The notes under the pieces were generated by a model, which did no database searches, was not told where the DNA came from, and was given only the letters and a program-made list of their open reading frames with translations. Positions 29,847 through 43,501 of a DNA stretch of 64,000 nucleotides are shown one piece after another. A program made the position numbers and the translations under genes. How positions within the stretch are numbered: the first letter of the stretch is position 1; the number at the start of each line of letters is the position of its first letter. The stretch is from Bacteroidales bacterium (GTDB taxonomy: Bacteria; Bacteroidota; Bacteroidia; Bacteroidales; NBLH01), in NCBI GenBank assembly GCA_016937695.1, contig JAFGWC010000157.1, positions 1 to 64,000 of the forward strand, read 5' to 3'.

Positions 29847-32800
29847 TTAGCTATCTAAATCTTTTTTTAGTTTTTTAACCCATTCATGATATAATTTATC
29901 GCTTTTTTCATCAAATTTAATCTCATCAACAGATGAATTTTCTTCAAGCTTTTTTCTAATTTCAATCAACTCTTTATTTTTTTCTGCGATATCTTTTTTT
30001 ATTTCCTCAATTATCTTATTATCTGATTCTGAGGCATTTATATCAATTGCATATATCACTATTTTCATTAAGTCATTTTTTTCATCTAAAACAGGAAATA
30101 AATAAGATTTCAAAAGCATTTCTGTATTATTTTTCTTGATTATTTTGAACTCAATATTTTGAGTTTCACCATTTCTAAGCTTAATTAAAGACTCTTCAAA
30201 TATTTTTTTATCTTTATCAATAAAGTATTTATATAATTCATTATCAATTATTTCTTTTTTTGAATATCCAATACTTTTTTCAAACGAATTATTTATTTCT
30301 ATAATTTTATTTTCATTATTTATCTCAATTTTATAATATAAGTTATCTAATGCTGAGCTTGTTACAATAAATTTATTAGTGTTTTCAGAACCATCTATTT
30401 GTTTAGTTTCTCTTTGGTTAATAATTTTATTGATTTCATCATCTCTTTCTTTTAATAAGTCTGAAAGTTTTTCTGATTGTTGAGTTAAAACTTCTTTTTC
30501 TTCCTCTACGCTTTTTAATTTTGTTATATCTGAAGCAATGTTAAGAACTTTAAATGGTTTATTGTTTGAGTCTAAAATAGGTGTGTATGTTTGGTCTAGC
30601 CAAATATTTTTCCCATCGCTAAAATTATATCTTTCACTAATTATAAAATGATTTCCATTTTTAAGTTCATTCCATATTTGAATGTTTTTTTCATTTGTTC
30701 TGTTAATAATAACAAAGTCTTCAAGTTTACGTCCAATCATTTGATCTAATGATTTTTCAAACATTTTTAAAAATGCATCATTAACATTTGTAATTAATCC
30801 TTGCATATCAAATTCCATAACTAATGTAGCTTTTTCAATAGCATTTAGGATACTTGATATTTCAGTATGTTTTCCAATTATTTCTTTTTGTGCATTTTTA
30901 AGATTATTAATATTTTGTTCTAGCTCTTCTTCTTTAAATTGCAATGCAGTGGCTCTAGCAATTGATTCTTCTTCACTTTGTTTATATCTTGTGATATCAT
31001 GCGCTAAATAAAGAACTTTACTAATTTTACCATCAATATCTTTTACAGGTGTATATTGATTAATTAGCCAAATAGTTTCTCCTGTTTTAGTTTTTCTTCT
31101 AACTTCTAATTGTTTAGGGTTTCCTTTTATTACATTGTTCCATAAAGTTCTAAAGTTATCTAGTTCGTTTTGTGGAACAAACATTTCAATATTTTTACCA
31201 ATAATTTCAGAAAGTTCGTAACCCATTGTTTTAAGATGCCTATCGTTAACAGAAATTAAAGTTCCATCAATTTCGTATTCTCCTTTCATTAATGTATTAT
31301 CAACAGCCGAAAGAATACCACCTAAATCGGCTTCTCGAATTTTAGAAAGTTCTTGTGCTGCAATCATTTGTTCCATATTTCTTCTGCCCTCAATTTCTTG
31401 TTCAGTAAGAACTTCTGATTGTTTTCTTGATTCTTCTAATAAATGTTCTGTTTGTTCGTTAATTCTTGCTGTAAGTAATGATGAAGCAATACTTTGAGCA
31501 ACATCTTCTACAAATTTAACTTCAAAATCATGAAATTCTTTGAATGATGCAATTTCAACAACTCCAAGAATATCTTCTTCAAATTTTAAAGGTACAATAA
31601 TTAAGCTTTTAGGGTTCGAATCACCTAAACCTGATTCGATTTCGATATAATCTTCTGGTATTTCTTTGAGATAAATAGTATTTCTTTCAAGCGCAACAGT
31701 TCCAATCAATCCATCTCCAATTTCAATTTCTCTTTCAAAAAATTTTTTTCTATCATATGCAAAAGCTGAAACTAATTTTAAAATAGATTTTTGTCCATCA
31801 TCAACAATTGTGAAAAGACCTCCTTGATTAGCGTTTAAGTAATAAACCAAATTTTTAATTATATTATCGGTTAATTCATTTATTCCGCCAGCTCTTTGTC
31901 TTAAAATTTCGCTAAATAAAGCATGTCCTTTATTAGTCCAGTTTCTTCTTTCATCTTCTATTTTTCTTCTTTCGTCTGCTTCTTTGGCTAATTTAAGATT
32001 ATTTTGCAGGTTTACAAGTGCGTTTCCTAATAAATCAGATTTAGTTACTGTGTGTTTACTATCGTAATTACCTTTGCTGATTTCAATTGCAAAATTATTT
32101 ACTCGAGATATATTTGAAGTTAACTCGTTTGTTAATTTTGCCATCAATCCTATTTCGTTTTCAGATTCAGGAACATTAGTTTCTGGGATTTCACCTTTTC
32201 CTAAAATCTGAAGATTATCTTTTAATACTTTTAATGCCGGACTAATATCTTTTAATAAGAAAAAGATTATACCTATTGACAATAATAATACTATAAAACT
32301 GTAAAGATAAATTTTTGTAAGCAATTGTTTTTCAAGCTGATGAATATATTCACTATTTGAAATAATTCCTTTTTTATTGTAATCCATCAAATCTTTTACA
32401 AGAATTTGTAAATTTTTAAATGAAGCTATTTCTCTTTTAGCTCTAATTTCACTAATTAGTTCTTGTTTATCGTTAAATTTTAGTGTATTTATTTCTTTTA
32501 AAATTGATATGTAGTTTTGAAATTCTATTAAAAATTTGTCATAAAGTTCTCTTTGTACTTGGTTCGAAATTGATTGTTCAAAATCGGCTAAATAATTATC
32601 AACCAAGTCCATGTTTACAGAATTATTTGCAGAAATTTCAGTTATTTCATCATTATATAAAATATGATTTTCAATTAGTATTGCGTACAAATTTTCGACA
32701 AGATTGGAAAGACTTACTATATTTTCGAGATATACGACATTAATTTCGTTAATTTTTTTATTTATATCTGATATTCCACGTATAGATACAATACCCATAA

Positions 32801-32894
32801 TAACTATCAAAGTAGCTATAATAAATATCAGGCTATTTAATCTTTTTCTGATTAATATGCTATTTCTTATTTTAGAAATTTTCTCAAACATCAA
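29847..32894 (-). CDS. Multi-PAS/GAF membrane sensor without recognisable output domain
   Basis: N-terminal TM, long periplasmic helical region, second TM, HAMP-like, GAF IGDGLIGTVALERN, three PAS domains; C-terminal end is coiled-coil with no kinase, GGDEF or PP2C motifs. Confidence 0.85.
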   Translation of the reverse strand: MMFEKISKIRNSILIRKRLNSLIFIIATLIVIMGIVSIRGISDINKKINEINVVYLENIVSLSNLVENLYAILIENHILYNDEITEISANNSVNMDLVDNYLADFEQSISNQVQRELYDKFLIEFQNYISILKEINTLKFNDKQELISEIRAKREIASFKNLQILVKDLMDYNKKGIISNSEYIHQLEKQLLTKIYLYSFIVLLLSIGIIFFLLKDISPALKVLKDNLQILGKGEIPETNVPESENEIGLMAKLTNELTSNISRVNNFAIEISKGNYDSKHTVTKSDLLGNALVNLQNNLKLAKEADERRKIEDERRNWTNKGHALFSEILRQRAGGINELTDNIIKNLVYYLNANQGGLFTIVDDGQKSILKLVSAFAYDRKKFFEREIEIGDGLIGTVALERNTIYLKEIPEDYIEIESGLGDSNPKSLIIVPLKFEEDILGVVEIASFKEFHDFEVKFVEDVAQSIASSLLTARINEQTEHLLEESRKQSEVLTEQEIEGRRNMEQMIAAQELSKIREADLGGILSAVDNTLMKGEYEIDGTLISVNDRHLKTMGYELSEIIGKNIEMFVPQNELDNFRTLWNNVIKGNPKQLEVRRKTKTGETIWLINQYTPVKDIDGKISKVLYLAHDITRYKQSEEESIARATALQFKEEELEQNINNLKNAQKEIIGKHTEISSILNAIEKATLVMEFDMQGLITNVNDAFLKMFEKSLDQMIGRKLEDFVIINRTNEKNIQIWNELKNGNHFIISERYNFSDGKNIWLDQTYTPILDSNNKPFKVLNIASDITKLKSVEEEKEVLTQQSEKLSDLLKERDDEINKIINQRETKQIDGSENTNKFIVTSSALDNLYYKIEINNENKIIEINNSFEKSIGYSKKEIIDNELYKYFIDKDKKIFEESLIKLRNGETQNIEFKIIKKNNTEMLLKSYLFPVLDEKNDLMKIVIYAIDINASESDNKIIEEIKKDIAEKNKELIEIRKKLEENSSVDEIKFDEKSDKLYHEWVKKLKKDLDS

Positions 32895-33364: not shown

Positions 33365-34240
33365 TTATTCACTTAATAATATTTGTTTGGCTTTTTCGAG
33401 GTCGTTTTTTTCTTTTTCAGGTAATTCCGGAATATTTAGGTTTAACGATTTTAATTTATCAATAATTATATCGCTTATGGCAATTCTTGTATACCATTTA
33501 TTATCAGCTGGTATAACGTACCACGGCGCATATTCTGTAGAAGTTTTATTTATTGCCTGTTCAAATGCATTTTGATATTTATCCCAAAGCTTTCTTTCTT
33601 CGATATCTCCCATTGAAAATTTCCAATTTTTATCTTCTTGTTCTATTCTGTCAAGAAATCTTATTTTTTGCTCTTCTTTTGAAAGATTAAGAAAAAATTT
33701 TAAGATAATTGTTCCGTTTTGATGTAAATTTTTTTCAAAATTATTAATTTGCTGATATCTGTCTTCCCAAAATTGATTATTTACTTTATCAATTGAGTCG
33801 ATTCCGGGAATTTGTTCTCCTAAAATATATTGTGGGTGCACTTTTGTTACAAGTACATTTTCGTAATGAGAGCGATTAAATATTCCAATTTGTCCTCTTT
33901 CAGGTAGTTCTTTATAATGTCGCCAAAGAAAATCGTGATCTAATTCATTTTTTGAAGGTGCTTTAAAACTTGTAACTCGGCAGCCTTGTGGGTTAATTCC
34001 TGACATAACGTGTTTTATTACTCCGTCTTTACCTGCTGCATCCATTGCTTGCAAAACAATTAACAAAGAATATCTGTCATCGGCATAAAAAGTGTATTGA
34101 ATTTTTGATAGCTTTTTAATATTTTTTTTTAGCTTTTCTTTTGATTCTTCGATTTTATATTTTCCGGTATATTTAGTGTCTTGTTCGCTGATTATAAACT
34201 TGTTACCAGGCTTTGCCATTAATTTTTCGATATCTACCAT
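33365..34240 (-). CDS. Polyphosphate kinase 2 family protein (polyP:nucleotide phosphotransferase)
   Basis: LQAMDAAGKDGVIKHVMSGINPQGCRVTSFKAPS Walker A-like; GIFNRSHYENVLVTKVHP; IRFLDRIEQEDKNWKFSMGDIEER. Confidence 0.95.
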   Translation of the reverse strand: MVDIEKLMAKPGNKFIISEQDTKYTGKYKIEESKEKLKKNIKKLSKIQYTFYADDRYSLLIVLQAMDAAGKDGVIKHVMSGINPQGCRVTSFKAPSKNELDHDFLWRHYKELPERGQIGIFNRSHYENVLVTKVHPQYILGEQIPGIDSIDKVNNQFWEDRYQQINNFEKNLHQNGTIILKFFLNLSKEEQKIRFLDRIEQEDKNWKFSMGDIEERKLWDKYQNAFEQAINKTSTEYAPWYVIPADNKWYTRIAISDIIIDKLKSLNLNIPELPEKEKNDLEKAKQILLSE

Positions 34241-34297: not shown

Positions 34298-34331
34298 AAA
34301 AAACCACTTTAAAATATTTTAAAGCGGTTTT
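34298..34331. terminator. Terminator-like hairpin separating the TPR operon from the PPK2 gene
   Basis: AAAACCACTTTAAAAT / ATTTTAAAGCGGTTTT stem, one mismatch. Confidence 0.65.
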
Positions 34332-34350: not shown

Positions 34351-34971
34351 TTATTTTATAAGTTTTAATCCTTCAAGTGCAGATTTATCGTTTGGTGAAT
34401 ACATCAAAACCTTATTAAACAACACTTTAGCTTCTCTGGATTTTCCCATTTGAAAATTTGTCCAAGCTAACATTAATAAAGCATCGTATCCAAAAGGATA
34501 TAAATTAACAACTTTATCGAAGTATTTAAATGCATTCTGATACTCTTTTTGTCCGTAATAAATAAGTCCTAATCTATAATTTGCAATAGTATTGTTTGGT
34601 GAATTAGCTATAATTTTTTTATACAAAGAAATTACCTCATCCCATTTACCAATTGCGGCATTTGGATATATTAGTCCAAATTTTGCTTCTTCTGCATATG
34701 GCATTAAATTTACTGCTTTTTGATAATGGGCAACAGATTCGTTAAAAATACCGGCTTGGTAATTTAACCATCCTAATCTCAGATTTATTTCATATGAATT
34801 AGCGTCATAAACATTTTTTAAAACCTGAACAGCTTTTTTAAATTCTCCTTTTTTCTCTAATTCATAACTTTTTTCAAATGCCTGTAATACAGCAACTTGA
34901 CTAAGCATATTTGTAGTAATAAACATTAATATAATTACTACTGCTATTGTTTTTCTTTTTAAAAATTCCAT
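34351..34971 (-). CDS. Secreted TPR protein
   Basis: Signal peptide; TPR units (NYRLGLIYYGQKEYQNAFKYFDKVVNLYP). Confidence 0.88.
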   Translation of the reverse strand: MEFLKRKTIAVVIILMFITTNMLSQVAVLQAFEKSYELEKKGEFKKAVQVLKNVYDANSYEINLRLGWLNYQAGIFNESVAHYQKAVNLMPYAEEAKFGLIYPNAAIGKWDEVISLYKKIIANSPNNTIANYRLGLIYYGQKEYQNAFKYFDKVVNLYPFGYDALLMLAWTNFQMGKSREAKVLFNKVLMYSPNDKSALEGLKLIK

Positions 34972-36287
34972 TTTATTCCTCCTATTATTGCGTTATAACT
35001 ATATTCTTTTTTAAAATCTAAATCATTAATTTTGTATTCATTTATTTTTATATAATCTTCGTATTTTGCAAAAAGAGTTAGTTTGTAATTAAATAAATAT
35101 CCATATATTTTAACTGATTTCATATCTTTAATTACATCTAAATCATTATAAATAACAAAAGCGTGGTTACTTACATAGTTTTTAAAATTGCCGAAAGAGA
35201 TTGCTGGTTCGATAAATATTTTATAAATTTTCAACCCAATTGATTGATTAACAACTAATTGCGAAATAGTTCCGTTTGAAGAAAAATCGAATTGATTATT
35301 AATACTGCTTAAAGTGTAAAAATTATTATTACCAAAAGGATAAAAATACATTGATAAGCCCGGTTGTATTTGAAATTGTCCGTTAATAGCTGATAATGAG
35401 TTTGATAATTCAAATTTAAGCAATGAAAAATCTTTTTCAAAAGATAAGAATCCGATAAAAGCTCCGGTTGTTACTTTTTGAATTCCAACTGATGAACTAC
35501 TCCATGCACCTTTAGTTTGAACAGTTGTTAATTCATCCGAAAATATTAGTGCTGTATTAAAAGCCAAATTAAACTTTAATCCATATTTTGCTTGTTTGCT
35601 GAATTTAAAATATAGTTGACTTTGTTTTACGCTTCTGTTAAAATTATATGCTGAATTTTCTTCAACTACAAAAGAATTATTTAATATGTTAATTCCGGTA
35701 TAACCCCAATAAATTCTTTTATCGTTTTGTATTAAATTTTCAAAATTTACTGAATAATAAGAAAAATCTGTTCTAATATCTTGTTTTAAAATATCGCCTG
35801 TATTTGTTTCGGCAGTATAGTCTTTCCAGTTATCAAATTTTGTTTCTATGTATATTGAACTAAAAATCGGATTTTGCTTAATTCCTATTTTTTCTTTAAG
35901 GTTTACAGATAAAACAGATGTAAATTTTCTGGCATCTTCAATTCTTCCTGAAAATAGATATGAATAGTACAAATATTCTTTAATTAGCTCATCATTAGGA
36001 TTTTGATCTCTTGCATTTTCGAAATAATTTATTGCTTGTCGGTACTTTTTAAGTTCATAATAAGCAATTCCCATTCTAACTTGAAGATAGTAGAAATCAA
36101 TATCATTTTTTAATGAAATTTTTCCTGTTTTAATTAAATCTTTCCATTCTGATTTTAGATATTGATCGTAAGTTTTAATATTTATTTCCGGATAATTAAC
36201 TGTTTCTTGCGATTTTACAGATAATATAAAAAATCCGACAATTATTGCTGTTAAAGCGAATTTGTAAATTAAGTTTTTTTTATGCAT
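34959..36287 (-). CDS. TPR plus predicted outer-membrane beta-barrel protein
   Basis: Signal peptide; TPR (IAYYELKKYRQAINYFENARDQNP); C-terminal alternating strands ending in GGIKWNF; overlaps next gene by 13 bp. Confidence 0.75.
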   Translation of the reverse strand: MHKKNLIYKFALTAIIVGFFILSVKSQETVNYPEINIKTYDQYLKSEWKDLIKTGKISLKNDIDFYYLQVRMGIAYYELKKYRQAINYFENARDQNPNDELIKEYLYYSYLFSGRIEDARKFTSVLSVNLKEKIGIKQNPIFSSIYIETKFDNWKDYTAETNTGDILKQDIRTDFSYYSVNFENLIQNDKRIYWGYTGINILNNSFVVEENSAYNFNRSVKQSQLYFKFSKQAKYGLKFNLAFNTALIFSDELTTVQTKGAWSSSSVGIQKVTTGAFIGFLSFEKDFSLLKFELSNSLSAINGQFQIQPGLSMYFYPFGNNNFYTLSSINNQFDFSSNGTISQLVVNQSIGLKIYKIFIEPAISFGNFKNYVSNHAFVIYNDLDVIKDMKSVKIYGYLFNYKLTLFAKYEDYIKINEYKINDLDFKKEYSYNAIIGGIKWNF

Positions 36288-36292
36288 TTTAA

Positions 36293-38494
36293 TTAATCAA
36301 TTTTTCTTGTTAATTTAATTTTATTTTTTGAATAAATTTCAAAAATTCCTTTATTATCTATCTGAATATCAAAACTTAAGCTTTTTAGTGATTTTTTAAA
36401 AAAGTAATTTGTCAATTTACTTTCTAGTATTATTTTTTCCGGCGATAATTCATTATCGATGCTTAAATATTTTAATTCAAATCTTGTATTTAAAAATAAA
36501 AAAAATGGTGCAAAAATATCTTGCAAATACATTAAGTATTTGTTAAACACTATGTTAATAGGAATTGAATCTGAAATTATTACATCTTCATAATATCCGA
36601 AAGAAACATTATATACAGATAAATAAAAATAATATAATGCTGAGTTTTTATCTCCAATAAAATTTTTGAAATAGTTAATTTTATTATCGTTGTATAAATA
36701 AGCAAATGAATTTGTTTGTTCGCAATGTATGTATGTGTTATTGTAAACATCAGTTTCTACATTCCAATAAACAAAATTTTCTTTTCCATTTTCGTATTTG
36801 GCATTAAATTCTAATTTTTGTCCTGGAATAAAGTTCATGGAATCTTTAAGAATATTACAAACTTTAATATTTGAAACTTTTTCATTTAATTTTGGTTTAT
36901 TAAAAGATAAAAAATCGAACTTATTATCTTGATTTACAATAAAATGGTCAATTGGATAATCAATAGTTTTTGAACCAATATAAGGTGTTGCCTGAAGCTG
37001 AAAATGCAAATGTGGATAAGGCGAACGTCCTGAGTTTCCACATTGAGCCAAAACATCGCCTTTTTTAATAAACTCGCCTTTTTTTACTTTAAATGTGTCC
37101 TTTTTAATATGGCTTAATTGAGAATAAAAATATTCTGTATGCTTTATTACAATTGAGTTTCCCCAATTATTAATTAAGTTTACATCTCCAATTTTGTTGT
37201 CTTCAATTCCATCAATTATTTCAACAATAATTCCATCGGCCGGTGCGCAAATCATTTTTCCGTAGCAAAAATAATCTTCAGGCAAATCGCCATTATTTTT
37301 AAATTGCTGGTTTTTGTTGTCTGTAATAATAAAATCCCACGCGTATTTCCATTCGCCTTTATGAGTATATTCACCATTTTCTGATTGAGAAACTGTCCAT
37401 TCGCCCATAAAAGGAAGTGATATTGGAAAAAACTTAAGCCACTTAAACCGTTTAACTGCCTGATTATGAAAGTATAAGTTTTTTTCAGGATTATTCAATT
37501 GTAGAATTACTTCTGTTAAATTTTCATCATGTATATATCTTAATTTTAATATATATATAAATAAAATTACAACAATATTAAAAGGCAAAGAATAAACTGC
37601 TAACTGATATGGAATTAGCAACTTGCCAATGCTTAATGTTATTAAAACTACAACCGGTAATAATAAAATTACCCATAAAAAAGATTTTTTTGTTGGTATA
37701 AGAAAATGCCCGCCAACAGCAATTGCCATTAAAATATAATTAAATCCGATATATGCATATCCGTATTGAGTAATATCTGCACCAATAAAGTGGTAAAAAG
37801 CATATGCCGTAAAATAACCAATTATTGATAATAAAAAAGATATTCTGGAATAGAAAAATAATCCAGCAGCAATTAATAAACCTGCAAAAATATTATATTG
37901 AAAAAAAATTGACGCTAATGATAAAAAATAAGTGCTTATTATTTCGGGAATATGGATATTATCAATAAAAATATAAATATCGACTAATGATTTTCCTCCA
38001 ATTTGAAATAATTCGTTTGTTGTGAAAATACCTCTTTCGCTTAATCCTAATCCCAATAAATCTCTGCTTGAAAGCATTACTATCCACATTCCGAAAAGAA
38101 AAGGAATACTTAAAAAAGGTAAATAATACTTTGCAAAAATTCCTTCTAAAAATAAGCTGATGAATAAAGTTAAAACAGAAGCAAAAAAAACAATAAAAAA
38201 TAGTTCAATTCCCGGCTGAAATGTTAGTCCAACTCCAAGTCCGACAAGTAAACTGTTAAATCCGTACGAACCTTTTTTTATTGTAAAAATATTGTATCCT
38301 AAATAATATGCAATTAAGTTTGTTACAAAAACAGAAATAATGCCTGAAAAACCAGCCCAAAAATCAAAAAAACTTACAATAATTAATATTACTCCAAATA
38401 TTTTATTATCTGAAAAAAATACTTGAGAATAACTATTAACAAAACTTTCAAGAACTCCTGAAATTTTATTTTTTAATCGTAAGCCAATAATCAT
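36293..38494 (-). CDS. Urea transporter (UT family) fused to M23/LytM-like peptidase domain
   Basis: N-terminal UT-like TM region (YNIFTIKKGSYGFNSLLVGLGVGL); C-terminal GNSIVIKHTEYFYSQLSHIKKDTFKVKKGEFIKKGDVLAQCGNSGRSPYPHLHFQLQ. Confidence 0.88.
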   Translation of the reverse strand: MIIGLRLKNKISGVLESFVNSYSQVFFSDNKIFGVILIIVSFFDFWAGFSGIISVFVTNLIAYYLGYNIFTIKKGSYGFNSLLVGLGVGLTFQPGIELFFIVFFASVLTLFISLFLEGIFAKYYLPFLSIPFLFGMWIVMLSSRDLLGLGLSERGIFTTNELFQIGGKSLVDIYIFIDNIHIPEIISTYFLSLASIFFQYNIFAGLLIAAGLFFYSRISFLLSIIGYFTAYAFYHFIGADITQYGYAYIGFNYILMAIAVGGHFLIPTKKSFLWVILLLPVVVLITLSIGKLLIPYQLAVYSLPFNIVVILFIYILKLRYIHDENLTEVILQLNNPEKNLYFHNQAVKRFKWLKFFPISLPFMGEWTVSQSENGEYTHKGEWKYAWDFIITDNKNQQFKNNGDLPEDYFCYGKMICAPADGIIVEIIDGIEDNKIGDVNLINNWGNSIVIKHTEYFYSQLSHIKKDTFKVKKGEFIKKGDVLAQCGNSGRSPYPHLHFQLQATPYIGSKTIDYPIDHFIVNQDNKFDFLSFNKPKLNEKVSNIKVCNILKDSMNFIPGQKLEFNAKYENGKENFVYWNVETDVYNNTYIHCEQTNSFAYLYNDNKINYFKNFIGDKNSALYYFYLSVYNVSFGYYEDVIISDSIPINIVFNKYLMYLQDIFAPFFLFLNTRFELKYLSIDNELSPEKIILESKLTNYFFKKSLKSLSFDIQIDNKGIFEIYSKNKIKLTRKID

Positions 38495-38589
38495 AATGGG
38501 TTTTATATCAACAAATTAGTTATTTTATTTTGATTTTGATGTTTTCATTAATAGTTTACTTTACATATTTATTGCAAACTGAAGATTAT

Positions 38590-39942
38590 CTACTTTTTAT
38601 CTAAATGTTTTGGCATTTTTTCAGCATTTTTAAATGTTTCAGATGTTTCTTTTTCACGAATAACATGAACATTTCCATCAACTCCTAATAAAATTATATT
38701 TGGTCTTAAAGTAATAAATTGCATCCATTGCGTCATGTTATATGCCCCAATTCTAGGTATTACAAAATTATCATCTTTTTGTAATAAAGGAAATTGAATG
38801 GCAGCTCTAATAACATCAATATTCATACATAAAGGTCCATATATTGTGGTATCTTCAGTTTGCTGAGATGTTTCCTGAGCAGGTAAAACATCATGTTCGT
38901 ACCAAAAACTAGTGAAAAGTAAATTTACACCAACATCAATAATTGTAGAGCGACGACCATTAGCTAAACGCTTGTTAGCCAGAACAGTACCGATAATATA
39001 TCCTGCATCATCAATTAATGCTCTACCTGTTTCAAGAAATAAAGTTGGTAATTTATCAGGCTCAATTTCTGAATTAATAAGAGCATTTGTCATGCTTTCA
39101 GCATAATCGTCAAATGAAGGACATGTATCTTTTCCTGGCAAATATGCACCTTTAAGTGTGTTTTTTGAAGCAAAACCACCACCTAAATCAATATATTTAA
39201 TAGTATGATTAAATTTCTTTTGAACACGAACAGCCAAATCAGCTAATTTCGCAGCAGCTACACCATATGCGCTTGCAGTCATTATATAAGTACCAATATG
39301 TGTATGTAATCCTACAAGCTCGAGGTTTTCCGAAAGCATTATTCTGTTTAGTGCATTCCAAGCTTCACCATTTTCATAATTAAAACCAAATCTATCCCAT
39401 TGCGGATAAATTCCTGCGTCCATATTAACTCTAATAGCAACTTTAGCAGTTTTCTTTAATCTATTTGAAATTTTTATCAACGAATATAATTCATCAAAAT
39501 GATCAATATGGATAAAAGAATTGTTTAAAACAGCTTGTTCTAAATCATCATCGCTTTTATCTGGTCCGTTAAAAATAATTTTACTTCCACTCACGCCATT
39601 CGATAAAGCCTTATTATACTCAAAACCTGAAACTACTTCAGCCCAAGAGCCTTCGTCGTGAAAAATTTTACAAACAGCATCTAAATAATTTGTTTTATAC
39701 GACCATGCAAATTGAACTTTCGGATATCTGGTTGAAAAAGCCTGATAAGCCTCTTTATATGTATCTCTGATAATTTTTTCTGAAATAACATAAACAGGTG
39801 AACCATAATTTTTTATGAGTTCTTTCACTGAATGATTTTCTATTTTAGGCATAATTTGAGTTCTTACTTTCATGCCAAATTTATCAGGAACGCCTGCATT
39901 AATTTTATTAATTATTGGTCTTTCGTATTTTAATTTTTCCAT
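38590..39942 (-). CDS. Type III-fold PLP-dependent decarboxylase (DAP/ornithine decarboxylase-like)
   Basis: PLP Lys in FAWSYKTNYLDAV; GLHTHIGTYI; DLGGGFASKN; YGPLCMNIDVI. Confidence 0.9.
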   Translation of the reverse strand: MEKLKYERPIINKINAGVPDKFGMKVRTQIMPKIENHSVKELIKNYGSPVYVISEKIIRDTYKEAYQAFSTRYPKVQFAWSYKTNYLDAVCKIFHDEGSWAEVVSGFEYNKALSNGVSGSKIIFNGPDKSDDDLEQAVLNNSFIHIDHFDELYSLIKISNRLKKTAKVAIRVNMDAGIYPQWDRFGFNYENGEAWNALNRIMLSENLELVGLHTHIGTYIMTASAYGVAAAKLADLAVRVQKKFNHTIKYIDLGGGFASKNTLKGAYLPGKDTCPSFDDYAESMTNALINSEIEPDKLPTLFLETGRALIDDAGYIIGTVLANKRLANGRRSTIIDVGVNLLFTSFWYEHDVLPAQETSQQTEDTTIYGPLCMNIDVIRAAIQFPLLQKDDNFVIPRIGAYNMTQWMQFITLRPNIILLGVDGNVHVIREKETSETFKNAEKMPKHLDKK

Positions 39943-39992
39943 TTTGTTGTATTTTTAGATACTAATTTCTAATTACCTATTTACAGATATTA

Positions 39993-41039
39993 TTACAATT
40001 CACCTGTCATCGATAGTTTTTCAAATTGTGAAATATCACCAATCATATCGTACGAATATCTTATAAACATTTTACCAATATCATATGATTTATACGGTTC
40101 AACTCGCATTCCCATTGAAAGTTTAACAAGTGCTTCAGGAATATTTTGTCCTGCTCCAACAGCCAAATACACCCAAGCAGGAATTCTTGGATTAATTTCA
40201 ATTAAATAATATTCATTATTAATTGTTTTAATCATTTCTAATTCCATGCCACCTCGCCATTTTGTATTTTTTATTAATTTTTTGGTGATTTCTAACATTT
40301 TTTCATCGCCAAGCGTAATTCCTCCCCAAGCTTTACCTTTATCAGTGATGTATTGCTTTCTCATAGGAACAGCGCCAATAGTATTACCTTCGCCATCTCC
40401 AAGAGCCACAACATTTACTTCAGTGCCTCTAATAAATTCTTGAATAATTACAGGCACTCCCCATTTTGCTGTTATTTTATTAAAATGATTAATTACCTGT
40501 TCCGGATTATAAGCTAAATAAGCATCATAAAATTTCCCTTTTACTAATAAAGGATAGTCGAAATGATTTCTTAGATTATTAATATCAGCATAGCTGGTAA
40601 TAGATTTACTAAACGGAACTTTAATGCCATATTTTTCACCAAATTTCGGTAAATTTGTTTTACTTCTTTCTTCAAATTGCTCTAAAGTTGGCAAATAAAT
40701 ATTAATTCCAATTTCTTTTAATCTGGCTTCTGCAAGCATAAATGTATTTAGCTCAGCATCAAAATTTGGAATAATAACATTCAAATTTTCTTTTGAATGA
40801 ATGTATTCTATTCTATCTAAAAAAGCCTGACTCCCGGAAGAAGGATATGGAATTTGATAAGTTTTATCAACTGTATTTTCCATATAAATTCCGGGTTCAA
40901 GATTTTCATAAGCTAAACCTATAATCCTTACATCTAAATCTTTCGACTCACGTAAACTCCTGATTACAGGAACTCCGGGACCCGGATTATCAGTATTATT
41001 TAAACCTGTTACTCCTATATTTAATTTTATTTTTGTCAT
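39993..41039 (-). CDS. ATP-grasp ligase (carbamoyl-phosphate-synthase-like)
   Basis: YPLLVKGKFYDAYLAYNPEQV, VIIQEFIRGTEVNVVALGDGEG, MELEMIKTINNEYYLIEINPRIPAWVYLAVGAGQN. Confidence 0.9.
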   Translation of the reverse strand: MTKIKLNIGVTGLNNTDNPGPGVPVIRSLRESKDLDVRIIGLAYENLEPGIYMENTVDKTYQIPYPSSGSQAFLDRIEYIHSKENLNVIIPNFDAELNTFMLAEARLKEIGINIYLPTLEQFEERSKTNLPKFGEKYGIKVPFSKSITSYADINNLRNHFDYPLLVKGKFYDAYLAYNPEQVINHFNKITAKWGVPVIIQEFIRGTEVNVVALGDGEGNTIGAVPMRKQYITDKGKAWGGITLGDEKMLEITKKLIKNTKWRGGMELEMIKTINNEYYLIEINPRIPAWVYLAVGAGQNIPEALVKLSMGMRVEPYKSYDIGKMFIRYSYDMIGDISQFEKLSMTGEL

Positions 41040-41180
41040 AATTTCCTAGTTTACACCACAATACACTACTTTAATCTTTCGTGTATTATAAATCTTAGAC
41101 TGCTTGTTGTTAGTATATAAATTAAACAACATTGAATGACTAATACACTAATTCCCAATTACCAATATACTAGTTACTAA

Positions 41181-41426
41181 TTACAATTCTTCTAATAAAT
41201 TATGATGACTTAACATACCAATAAAATCATAATAATTTTTTTCGAAAATACTTTCTTCTATATCATACTTTTCAAAAATAAAATCCGATATTTCTTTGTC
41301 TGATTTATTTCCTTTTAGTAATGACAATATTTCTTTTCCAATAGGGTTTAATGTATAAGAATCACCACTTACAGGATCAAAAATAAACCCACTATCCGAA
41401 ATTGCTATATTACTTTTAAGTTTCAT
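41181..41426 (-). CDS. PqqD-like (RRE-like) small protein
   Basis: 81 aa; GFIFDPVSGDSYTLNPIGKEILSLLKGNKSDKEISDFIFEKYD, typical PqqD-family layout. Confidence 0.82.
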   Translation of the reverse strand: MKLKSNIAISDSGFIFDPVSGDSYTLNPIGKEILSLLKGNKSDKEISDFIFEKYDIEESIFEKNYYDFIGMLSHHNLLEEL

Positions 41427-41436
41427 ATTCTTTTTT

Positions 41437-42012
41437 TTAATATAAATTGTCTAACATTCTTTTTATTGATCTTTCACTTCTTTTATATTCACTAACAGAC
41501 ATATCTGTTTCTTTTTTAAACTGATTAGATAAATACTGAACACTGCTATAATCCATCATGTAGGCTATTTCACTTAAACTATATTCATCGCTGTCAATCA
41601 ATTCTTTTATTCTTTCTATTTTATTTAAAATGATGTATCTTTCCAAAGTTATTGTTTCATGTTTTGAAAAAAGCTTTGATAAATACTGATAACTAAAACC
41701 CAACTTTTCTACTAAATACTCAGATTTTCGAACTATTGAGTTTACATTGTTTGAGTGATGAATAATTTCTATAACAGCAGTTTTAATTTGCTCAATAATT
41801 TTTTGATCTCTTGATTTTATAAGCTCCATGCCCAAACTTTCAATAATTTTTGAAATTTTAGATAATGATATTTCTGTATTATTGAACTCGATATGAGCAA
41901 AACCAGCCCTTATTTTAATAACTTTAACACCTGCATTTTCAAGCTCTATATTTAAAAGCTTAATGCAACATGTGCAAATCATATTTTTGATATGTAAAAT
42001 TTCTTCTATCAA
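41437..42012 (-). CDS. AraC-family transcriptional regulator with HMA-like N-terminal domain
   Basis: N-terminal MICTCC (CxxC) beta-alpha unit; C-terminal AraC HTH YSLSEIAYMMDYSSVQYLSNQFKKETDMSVSEYKRS. Confidence 0.88.
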   Translation of the reverse strand: MIEEILHIKNMICTCCIKLLNIELENAGVKVIKIRAGFAHIEFNNTEISLSKISKIIESLGMELIKSRDQKIIEQIKTAVIEIIHHSNNVNSIVRKSEYLVEKLGFSYQYLSKLFSKHETITLERYIILNKIERIKELIDSDEYSLSEIAYMMDYSSVQYLSNQFKKETDMSVSEYKRSERSIKRMLDNLY

Positions 42013-42310: not shown

Positions 42311-43501
42311 ATGATGAAAAAATTACTTTTTGGTTTACTAACCTTAACCTTAATTATCTTTATTTCTTCTTGTCAAAAAGAAGATGAAATAGCTAAACAA
42401 GATTTACCTCAAGTAAATGATGAACTAATAGCAGGTCAATACATTGTTGTGTTAAACAATAGCACAAACAAAGCATTTTCCGAGCTAAAATATGCTGAAA
42501 AAGTTCAATTTGTTAAACAAGAAGCTATTCAACTAATGAATAAAATTGGATCTAACGAATCTGCAGTTCTTAATTCATTTGGTACAGCTTTAAGAGGATT
42601 TTCAGCAAAATTAAGCGATGAACAATTAGCTAATTTAAAAAATGATCCAACTGTATCGTACATTATTCAAGACAGAATGTTTAATCTTGGTAACATGAGA
42701 ATATTAAGAGGCAAACCAGTTCCGGTACCTGTTGATCCACCGGCAGAAACAATACCTTATGGAATTACAAGAGTTGGATACGGCGATGGAACAGGCAGAA
42801 CAGCCTGGATTATCGATACTGGTGTTGATTTAGATCATCCTGATTTAAATGTTGATGCATCAAGAGGATATGATTTTATTAATAATGATGCTTTTGCAGA
42901 TGATGATAATGGACATGGCTCGCATTGCGCCGGAACAGTTGCTGGTATTAATAATGATATTGGTGTAGTTGGAGTTGCTGCAAATGCAACTATTGTTCCT
43001 GTAAAAGTATTAGATAAAAGAGGAAGCGGTGCATATTCTGTTATAATTGCAGGTGTAGATTTTGTAGCTGCAAATGCAAGCCCAGGTGATGCTGCCAATA
43101 TGAGTTTGGGTGGTGGTGTTTATGAACCAATAGATGCTGCTGTTTTCGCAGCTTCTGAACATGGGATTTTCTTCGCTTTAGCAGCAGGAAACGAAAGTGA
43201 TGATGCACTTAATCATTCACCTGCAAGAGTTAATGGACAATATATCTGGACAACTTCTGCAATGGATATCAATGATAATTGGGCGTATTTTTCTAATTAT
43301 GGCACACCTGTAGATTATTGTATGCCAGGTTATAACATTTATTCAACATATATGAATGGCGGATATACAACAATGAGCGGGACTTCAATGGCTGCACCTC
43401 ATATGTGTGGTGTTTTACTTATGACAAACGGTAATCCTGCGACTGATGGTTATGTTAATGGCGATCCTGACGGAGATCCTGATCCAATTGCCCATTTATA
43501 G
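42311..43501 (+). CDS. Subtilisin-like S8 peptidase lipoprotein with I9 propeptide
   Basis: Lipobox SSCQKE; Asp WIIDTGVDLDHPDL; His NGHGSHCAGTVAG; Ser MSGTSMAAPHMCGV. Confidence 0.95.
   Translation: MMKKLLFGLLTLTLIIFISSCQKEDEIAKQDLPQVNDELIAGQYIVVLNNSTNKAFSELKYAEKVQFVKQEAIQLMNKIGSNESAVLNSFGTALRGFSAKLSDEQLANLKNDPTVSYIIQDRMFNLGNMRILRGKPVPVPVDPPAETIPYGITRVGYGDGTGRTAWIIDTGVDLDHPDLNVDASRGYDFINNDAFADDDNGHGSHCAGTVAGINNDIGVVGVAANATIVPVKVLDKRGSGAYSVIIAGVDFVAANASPGDAANMSLGGGVYEPIDAAVFAASEHGIFFALAAGNESDDALNHSPARVNGQYIWTTSAMDINDNWAYFSNYGTPVDYCMPGYNIYSTYMNGGYTTMSGTSMAAPHMCGVLLMTNGNPATDGYVNGDPDGDPDPIAHL

Follow-up and report, generated by a model that had tools for sequence, protein, structure and literature searches.

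A conserved operon in the Bacteroidota

A six-gene core, coding for a PqqD-like protein, an ATP-grasp ligase, a PLP decarboxylase, a urea transporter (UT)-fold protein fused to an M23 domain (UT-M23), a TPR-barrel protein and a TPR protein, is confirmed as a strongly conserved operon of the Bacteroidota. The core genes are either complete or wholly absent in this phylum, which shows them to be an obligate gene set, and chance grouping is excluded; we state no probability for the grouping because the sampled genomes are related to each other. As to function, we regard it as an even call that the operon serves the synthesis and probable export of a decarboxylated amide conjugate, through UT-M23 and then the TPR-barrel protein, by the full mechanism set out below.

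The window, a stretch of 64,000 nucleotides from a Bacteroidales genome, carries seven packed minus-strand genes running from 42012 to 34351. The first-pass annotation had described them as such, and all of the reading frames were found where it placed them. Its domain calls also held up in profile searches, weakly so for the HMA-like N-terminus of the first gene, an AraC-type regulator (see below). The last two genes overlap by 13 bp in the window, and the operon ends in a hairpin like a Rho-independent terminator (34300..34331, minus strand), which that annotation had noticed as well. The hairpin, read from 34331 to 34300, has a 14-bp stem followed by a T tail, with a folding energy of -16.5 kcal/mol (z = -5.7 versus shuffles); the terminator scan taken alone gave a result for it not above shuffles. 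Rfam and tRNA scans of the whole window gave no match.

To follow the operon across the phylum, ATP-grasp orthologs were gathered from three sources (relatives, named genomes and a sample spanning the phylum), and the surrounding genes were then read. Such a gene-neighborhood search had been proposed at the outset as a way of finding the genes not to be conserved together, and they turned out to be so conserved. With presence cut-offs of at least 380 bits for ATP-grasp, 567 bits for the operon-type decarboxylase and 430 bits for UT-M23, these three genes occur in an identical set of 34 of the 396 sampled phylum genomes and in none of the others. UT-M23 is incomplete in two of the 34 positive genomes and split into two overlapping frames in one. 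In one distant genome (L165) the UT and M23 parts are separate overlapping reading frames, through a gene split or a frameshift. The distance matrices of the three proteins correlate pairwise (r = 0.88-0.91).

About 120 non-redundant loci from many Bacteroidota families share the order PqqD > ATP-grasp > decarboxylase > UT-M23 > (barrel) > TPR, with median intergenic gaps along that order of -4, 21, 14, -13 and -13 bp; in more distant members, the TPR gene lies ahead of a different barrel gene. In a sample of 295 genomes from the window's order, PqqD was found in 117, ATP-grasp in 121 and both in 116. The only genome with PqqD and no ATP-grasp (G022) has a contig that stops right after PqqD. 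Among the five with ATP-grasp only, the gene is at a contig end in two (G003, G566), and the other three (G494, G534, G669) hold only fragments. No natural fusion of the operon enzymes was found; candidate ATP-grasp/decarboxylase fusions in L088 and L206 were discarded, since each reads through N gaps.

The operon is inherited as a unit, by about 9% of the sampled Bacteroidota and about 40% of the genomes sampled in the window's order, and so yields a product that many such bacteria retain. Cultured members exist in Labilibaculum, Ancylomarina and Marinifilum. Plasmid searches beyond the phylum gave ATP-grasps at 20-27% identity, M23-only and UT-only proteins and generic LysA, and the operon neighborhood was absent in the cases inspected. 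A role in anti-phage defense was rejected, as PADLOC models gave zero matches at 1e-5 for all seven proteins. That the operon is real is borne out by the shared order in about 120 loci and by the identical 34-genome sets. It is also apparently undescribed: the combination did not turn up in the literature searched, which was thin on subscription papers, and an older account is possible, perhaps within a survey of ATP-grasp amidoligases.

A decarboxylase probably acting on conjugated amino acids

The AR-fold (type III) PLP decarboxylase, FigC/FslC-like (38590..39942, minus strand; core gene 3, 450 amino acids, PF02784/PF00278), has N-citrylornithine decarboxylase as its nearest solved structure (7kh2, 267 bits), followed by DAPDC (193 bits) and BtrK (133 bits). 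It scores below the cut-offs of both the FslC family NF041039 (238 bits against 500) and the LysA family TIGR01048 (221.7 bits against 297.9). Residues K83, C372, M373 and W347 are invariant in all 110 operon decarboxylases, so that the position after the catalytic Cys is always Met (C372-M373); the genome's canonical LysA carries Glu at this point. ODC, ADC and DAPDC rely on an acidic residue beside the catalytic Cys for binding the amine of the side chain, while FigC has Met at that position (C354-M355) and a 3-10 helix without the Asp or Arg of the other enzymes (PMC7857480). In the operon enzyme the 3-10 helix bears T344/W347/Y348 in place of the ODC Asp or DAPDC Arg, and T/W/Y is found on this helix in all 110 enzymes.

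By these residues and scores, the operon decarboxylase groups with the FigC-like conjugate decarboxylases, and its predicted pocket is FigC-like. Because Met replaces the amine-binding acidic residue and the 3-10 helix is altered, the pocket suggests as substrate an amino acid whose distal end bears an uncharged conjugate. The first-pass annotation had offered ligation and decarboxylation of a conjugate as one possibility, and the Cys-Met pocket (110/110) now lends it support at the level of residues. What might the conjugate be? By alignment, the citrate ligands of FigC are replaced, H357 by I375 (110/110) and R387 by Q405 (109/110), from which we infer an acyl group other than citrate. The neighboring ATP-grasp enzyme is a likely source of the conjugate, presumably an amide.

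Published work on related enzymes offers several precedents: the enzymes of this clade play no part in polyamine synthesis, BtrK and MccE take as substrates residues bound to a carrier or a peptide, and FigC, SbnH and AcsE, the nearest decarboxylases, are siderophore makers (PMC7857480). The idea that the operon enzyme is the cell's only LysA was rejected, given the Met in place of Glu, the TIGR01048 score below cut-off and a separate canonical LysA in the same genome (at C83, beside an aspartokinase).

Among the closest known systems is FigA/FigC (FslA/FslC) of rhizoferrin synthesis in Francisella, whose ligase produces an N-acyl amino acid that is then decarboxylated by an AR-fold enzyme of the operon's type, with Cys-Met and the same kind of 3-10 helix. 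However, the Francisella ligase is an NIS synthetase rather than an ATP-grasp enzyme, its decarboxylase has the citrate-binding His and Arg that are absent here, and the system has no counterpart of the PqqD, UT-M23 and TPR-barrel genes. A second relative is the butirosin side-chain set BtrI/BtrJ/BtrK, where a small protein, an ATP-grasp enzyme and an AR-fold decarboxylase also act on a conjugated amino acid. In that case BtrI is a different kind of carrier protein, whereas the operon has a PqqD-like protein with no apparent conserved attachment residue, and the operon decarboxylase is closer to FigC (267 bits) than to BtrK (133 bits). The enzyme logic is known already from FigA/FigC and BtrJ/BtrK; the whole assembly was not found in the literature searched.

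The ATP-grasp ligase and the PqqD-like protein

The CPS-like ATP-grasp ligase (39993..41039, minus strand; core gene 2, 348 amino acids, assigned by domain profiles) matches the profiles ATPgrasp_Ter, ATP-grasp_3 and CPS-like. It should be active, because the ATP- and metal-binding residues K167, E207, E268, E281, N283 and R285 are invariant in its alignment. Its closest solved relatives are remote (CPS at 47 bits and 2pn1 at 43 bits).

The PqqD-like protein (41181..41426, minus strand; core gene 1, 81 amino acids) has an RRE fold by homology. It matches PF05402 at 36.3 bits, above the cut-off of 23.4, and falls under every NCBIfam RiPP-chaperone (equivalog) cut-off; its best solved relative is the lasso RRE TbiB1 (51 bits). 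We take it as an adaptor, for which a peptide encoded elsewhere is a possible partner. A LysW-like carrier function was rejected, because the C-terminal residue is variable, with Glu last in only 36 of 110 homologs. Ser is conserved to 90% or more in a single alignment column, which bears no mark of an attachment site.

Could the operon make a RiPP-like product? The PqqD-like protein would then be a true RRE for a precursor or scaffold peptide whose gene lies elsewhere, with the ATP-grasp enzyme adding or cyclizing a residue, the decarboxylase acting on the peptide-bound form, the M23 domain releasing the product and the UT part exporting it. The PqqD fold with TbiB1 as best solved relative, the intact zinc residues of the M23 peptidase, and the action of the relatives BtrK and MccE on carrier- or peptide-bound residues (PMC7857480) all fit this route. 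We nevertheless think it unlikely, for three reasons. First, no conserved small ORF lies in the operon or within 1.5 kb of it: 651 small ORFs from the operon plus or minus 1.5 kb formed no cluster beyond three closely related loci. Second, radical-SAM (rSAM), lanthipeptide and graspetide-type enzymes and a lasso cyclase are absent among the operon genes, and the ATP-grasp enzyme is CPS-like. Third, there are the RiPP-chaperone scores already mentioned. For the ribosomal peptide substrate considered in the first-pass annotation, only the PqqD fold speaks in favor and the small-ORF search speaks against, and its statement that no radical-SAM, PqqC or HprK-type partner is present proved correct for the core genes. 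Known RRE-dependent clusters (PQQ, lasso, graspetide) do share with the operon a stand-alone PqqD-like protein and, in graspetides, an ATP-grasp enzyme; they differ in having a precursor peptide and an rSAM, lasso or graspetide-type enzyme, and their transport genes are unrelated.

A urea-channel fold with an M23 domain predicted to be cytoplasmic

UT-M23 (36293..38494, minus strand; core gene 4, 733 amino acids) consists of a UT-fold channel (PF03253, 195.6 bits), an M23 zinc domain (PF01551, 51.6 bits) and a C-terminal beta domain, which forms the last 190 residues and gave no match of its own. It scores 119 against TIGR03441, under the cut-off of 274.6. The AlphaFold model has a pLDDT of 92.2, and its UT part aligns with the solved channel dvUT (targets 3k3f and 3me1) at TM-scores of 0.83-0.86. 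Like dvUT, the pore retains the first-filter Gln24, both Phe and the LPxxSxPF signatures, although the second-filter acidic residue has given way to Ala or Ser. Across 55 homologs, the first pore residue is Gln in 47 and Glu in three, and 51 have Ala or Ser at the second acidic/amide position. Also unlike dvUT, the protein is fused to an M23 domain predicted to be cytoplasmic and to a further beta domain, and it is obligately linked to biosynthetic enzymes.

Which side of the membrane does the M23 domain face? The inner and outer loops of the UT part were assigned on the known urea transporter topology. In the 55 homologs the predicted inner loops carry 0.153 K+R per residue and the outer loops 0.035. 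Because of this positive-inside charge distribution, both protein ends, and hence the M23 domain, should be cytoplasmic. The metal and catalytic residues H378, D387, H462, H495 and H497 are invariant (55/55). The first-pass annotation had the M23 domain acting in the envelope; UT topology and loop charges instead place it in the cytoplasm.

The predicted location bears on a cell-wall role, in which UT-M23 would be a peptidoglycan hydrolase anchored in the membrane, with DAP-containing peptides processed by the LysA-like enzyme. M23 domains with solved structures are mostly peptidoglycan hydrolases, and the decarboxylase is related to DAPDC. We consider this role highly improbable, however, with the M23 domain cytoplasmic by topology prediction, the DAP-binding Glu and Arg absent from the decarboxylase, and similar M23 domains in haloarchaea, where murein is absent. 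The haloarchaeal domains, encoded on plasmids (L202:4758-5621, L203:4518-5594), are 36-37% identical to that of UT-M23, though these archaea are without murein.

A channel could also serve uptake and assimilation: the barrel and the UT part would import a small amide- or urea-like solute, the M23 domain would hydrolyze it, and its parts would be recycled or detoxified by the ATP-grasp enzyme and decarboxylase. In favor of this, channels of the UT fold work passively and in both directions, Gln24, both Phe and LPxxSxPF are retained in the pore, the 14-strand barrel resembles the uptake porins FadL and OmpG, and a hydrolase sits at the channel's predicted cytoplasmic mouth. Still, a ligase that consumes ATP and a decarboxylase of conjugates are better suited to synthesis, the second acidic/amide residue of the urea-channel pore is Ala or Ser, and neither urease nor another catabolic partner recurs among the neighbors; we hold uptake to be distinctly unlikely.

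The outer-membrane side

The outer-membrane protein (34959..36287, minus strand; core gene 5) is predicted from its AlphaFold model (pLDDT 94.2) to have a barrel of 14 strands behind an N-terminal TPR domain, and its Foldseek matches are FadL, OmpG and BcsC. It is followed by a TPR protein with an N-terminal signal-like segment (34351..34971, minus strand; core gene 6, PF07719 at 70.6 bits). The claim that both membranes are involved is upheld. The exporters BcsC, PgaA and AlgK/AlgE likewise combine a TPR domain, an outer-membrane barrel and a periplasmic TPR protein, which suggests an envelope role; the operon differs from them in its 14-strand barrel, the lack of a polysaccharide synthase and the lack of a family-level match.

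In 11 loci, a gene within the operon or on its margin encodes a secreted protein of 260-300 amino acids whose C-terminal domain is of the type IX secretion kind (cluster c5; for example L050:11378-12187, L097:11065-11847, L120:17118-17915 and L206:3182-3973). Another cluster of this kind, c3, is present in 15 loci; among the more distant members it is often found directly upstream of PqqD.

A model for the operon

From the obligate gene set, the conserved catalytic residues, the FigC-like pocket, the folds and the M23 orientation by the positive-inside rule, we infer a substrate, an order of steps, a role for PqqD and a direction of transport. In the cytoplasm, the ATP-grasp enzyme would join a carboxylic acid to an amino acid to give an amide (or ester), and the PLP decarboxylase would then strip the alpha-carboxylate of the conjugated amino acid, leaving an amide with a primary amine at its end. 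The product would be an N-acyl-diamine or another decarboxylated conjugate. The PqqD-like protein may serve as a small adaptor, either presenting the substrate to the enzymes or scaffolding them. The product would cross the inner membrane via the urea-channel-fold part of UT-M23, with the cytoplasm-facing M23 zinc domain trimming or hydrolyzing the conjugate at the channel mouth, and would pass the outer membrane via the TPR/14-strand barrel and the periplasmic TPR protein.

Export over import is uncertain, and we prefer it because of the ATP-consuming ligase. The passage of a larger amine-bearing conjugate is not obvious, because a UT-fold pore is passive and admits small neutral solutes. Counting further against synthesis and export are a cytoplasmic M23 domain with no assigned role, an ATP-grasp enzyme far from ligases of known specificity and the lack of a natural fusion among the enzymes found. 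Of the earlier interpretation as a whole, ligation and decarboxylation, the two membranes and the undescribed operon survive, while the envelope M23 domain and the ribosomal peptide are not supported.

A more tentative proposal, which we find rather doubtful, is that the operon represents a small-molecule system of a new class that spans the envelope. A PqqD adaptor would work with an ATP-grasp enzyme and a conjugate decarboxylase to make an amide, and a cytoplasmic M23 domain in a UT-fold exporter would finish it before it leaves via the dedicated TPR-barrel. If this were true, urea-channel proteins would serve to export products, and M23 domains would act inside the cell as hydrolases of biosynthesis. 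The operon puts a PqqD fold, a UT channel and an M23 domain where none of them has a known role.

The regulator and flanking genes

The AraC-type regulator with an HMA-like N-terminus (41437..42012, minus strand; TTG start) is a frequent neighbor, optional rather than obligate: a homolog adjoins the operon in 51 of 122 loci. It had been counted among the operon genes, and its adjacency in the window is real; obligate membership does not hold at 51/122. The AraC HTH is called, and the HMA-like N-terminus is weakly supported (CopZ profile, E 6e-4), with no match to Pfam HMA. The Cys residues of the NMxCxCC motif are kept in 32, 42 and 39 of 48 homologs. Two or more further HMA-like AraC regulators occur in the genome (L197, L198), one of them beside small HMA proteins. 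HMA-like AraC proteins may form a family of metal-responsive regulators, as these features suggest.

Perhaps, then, an HMA-AraC metal sensor governs the synthesis of an exported amine or amide metal ligand. The regulator adjoins many loci with its Cys largely conserved, a DUF2202 gene is recurrent (16 loci), and FigC, SbnH and AcsE, the decarboxylases nearest to that of the operon, take part in siderophore synthesis (PMC7857480). On the other hand, most distant members lack the regulator, the citrate-binding residues are lost, the core has neither a TonB receptor nor an NIS synthetase, and some neighbors may be accidental. We rate a metallophore as very unlikely, and continue to prefer the synthesis and export of a decarboxylated amide conjugate.

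In most of its 16 loci, the DUF2202 gene immediately precedes the operon and has the same orientation (for example L125:2834-3478 and L206:4180-5313). In six loci a membrane acyltransferase-like gene (Acyl_transf_3/HGSNAT) is found inside or beside the operon, as at L061:12543-13586, L125:12025-13074 and L176:3425-4510. Downstream of the operon in the window are genes for a PPK2-type polyphosphate kinase (33365-34240) and a PAS/GAF sensor protein (29847-32894), and both are also downstream of the operon in a locus of the same genus (L055). Divergently oriented upstream of the operon, on the plus strand, is a gene for a subtilisin-like protease with an inhibitor I9 propeptide (42311-43501).
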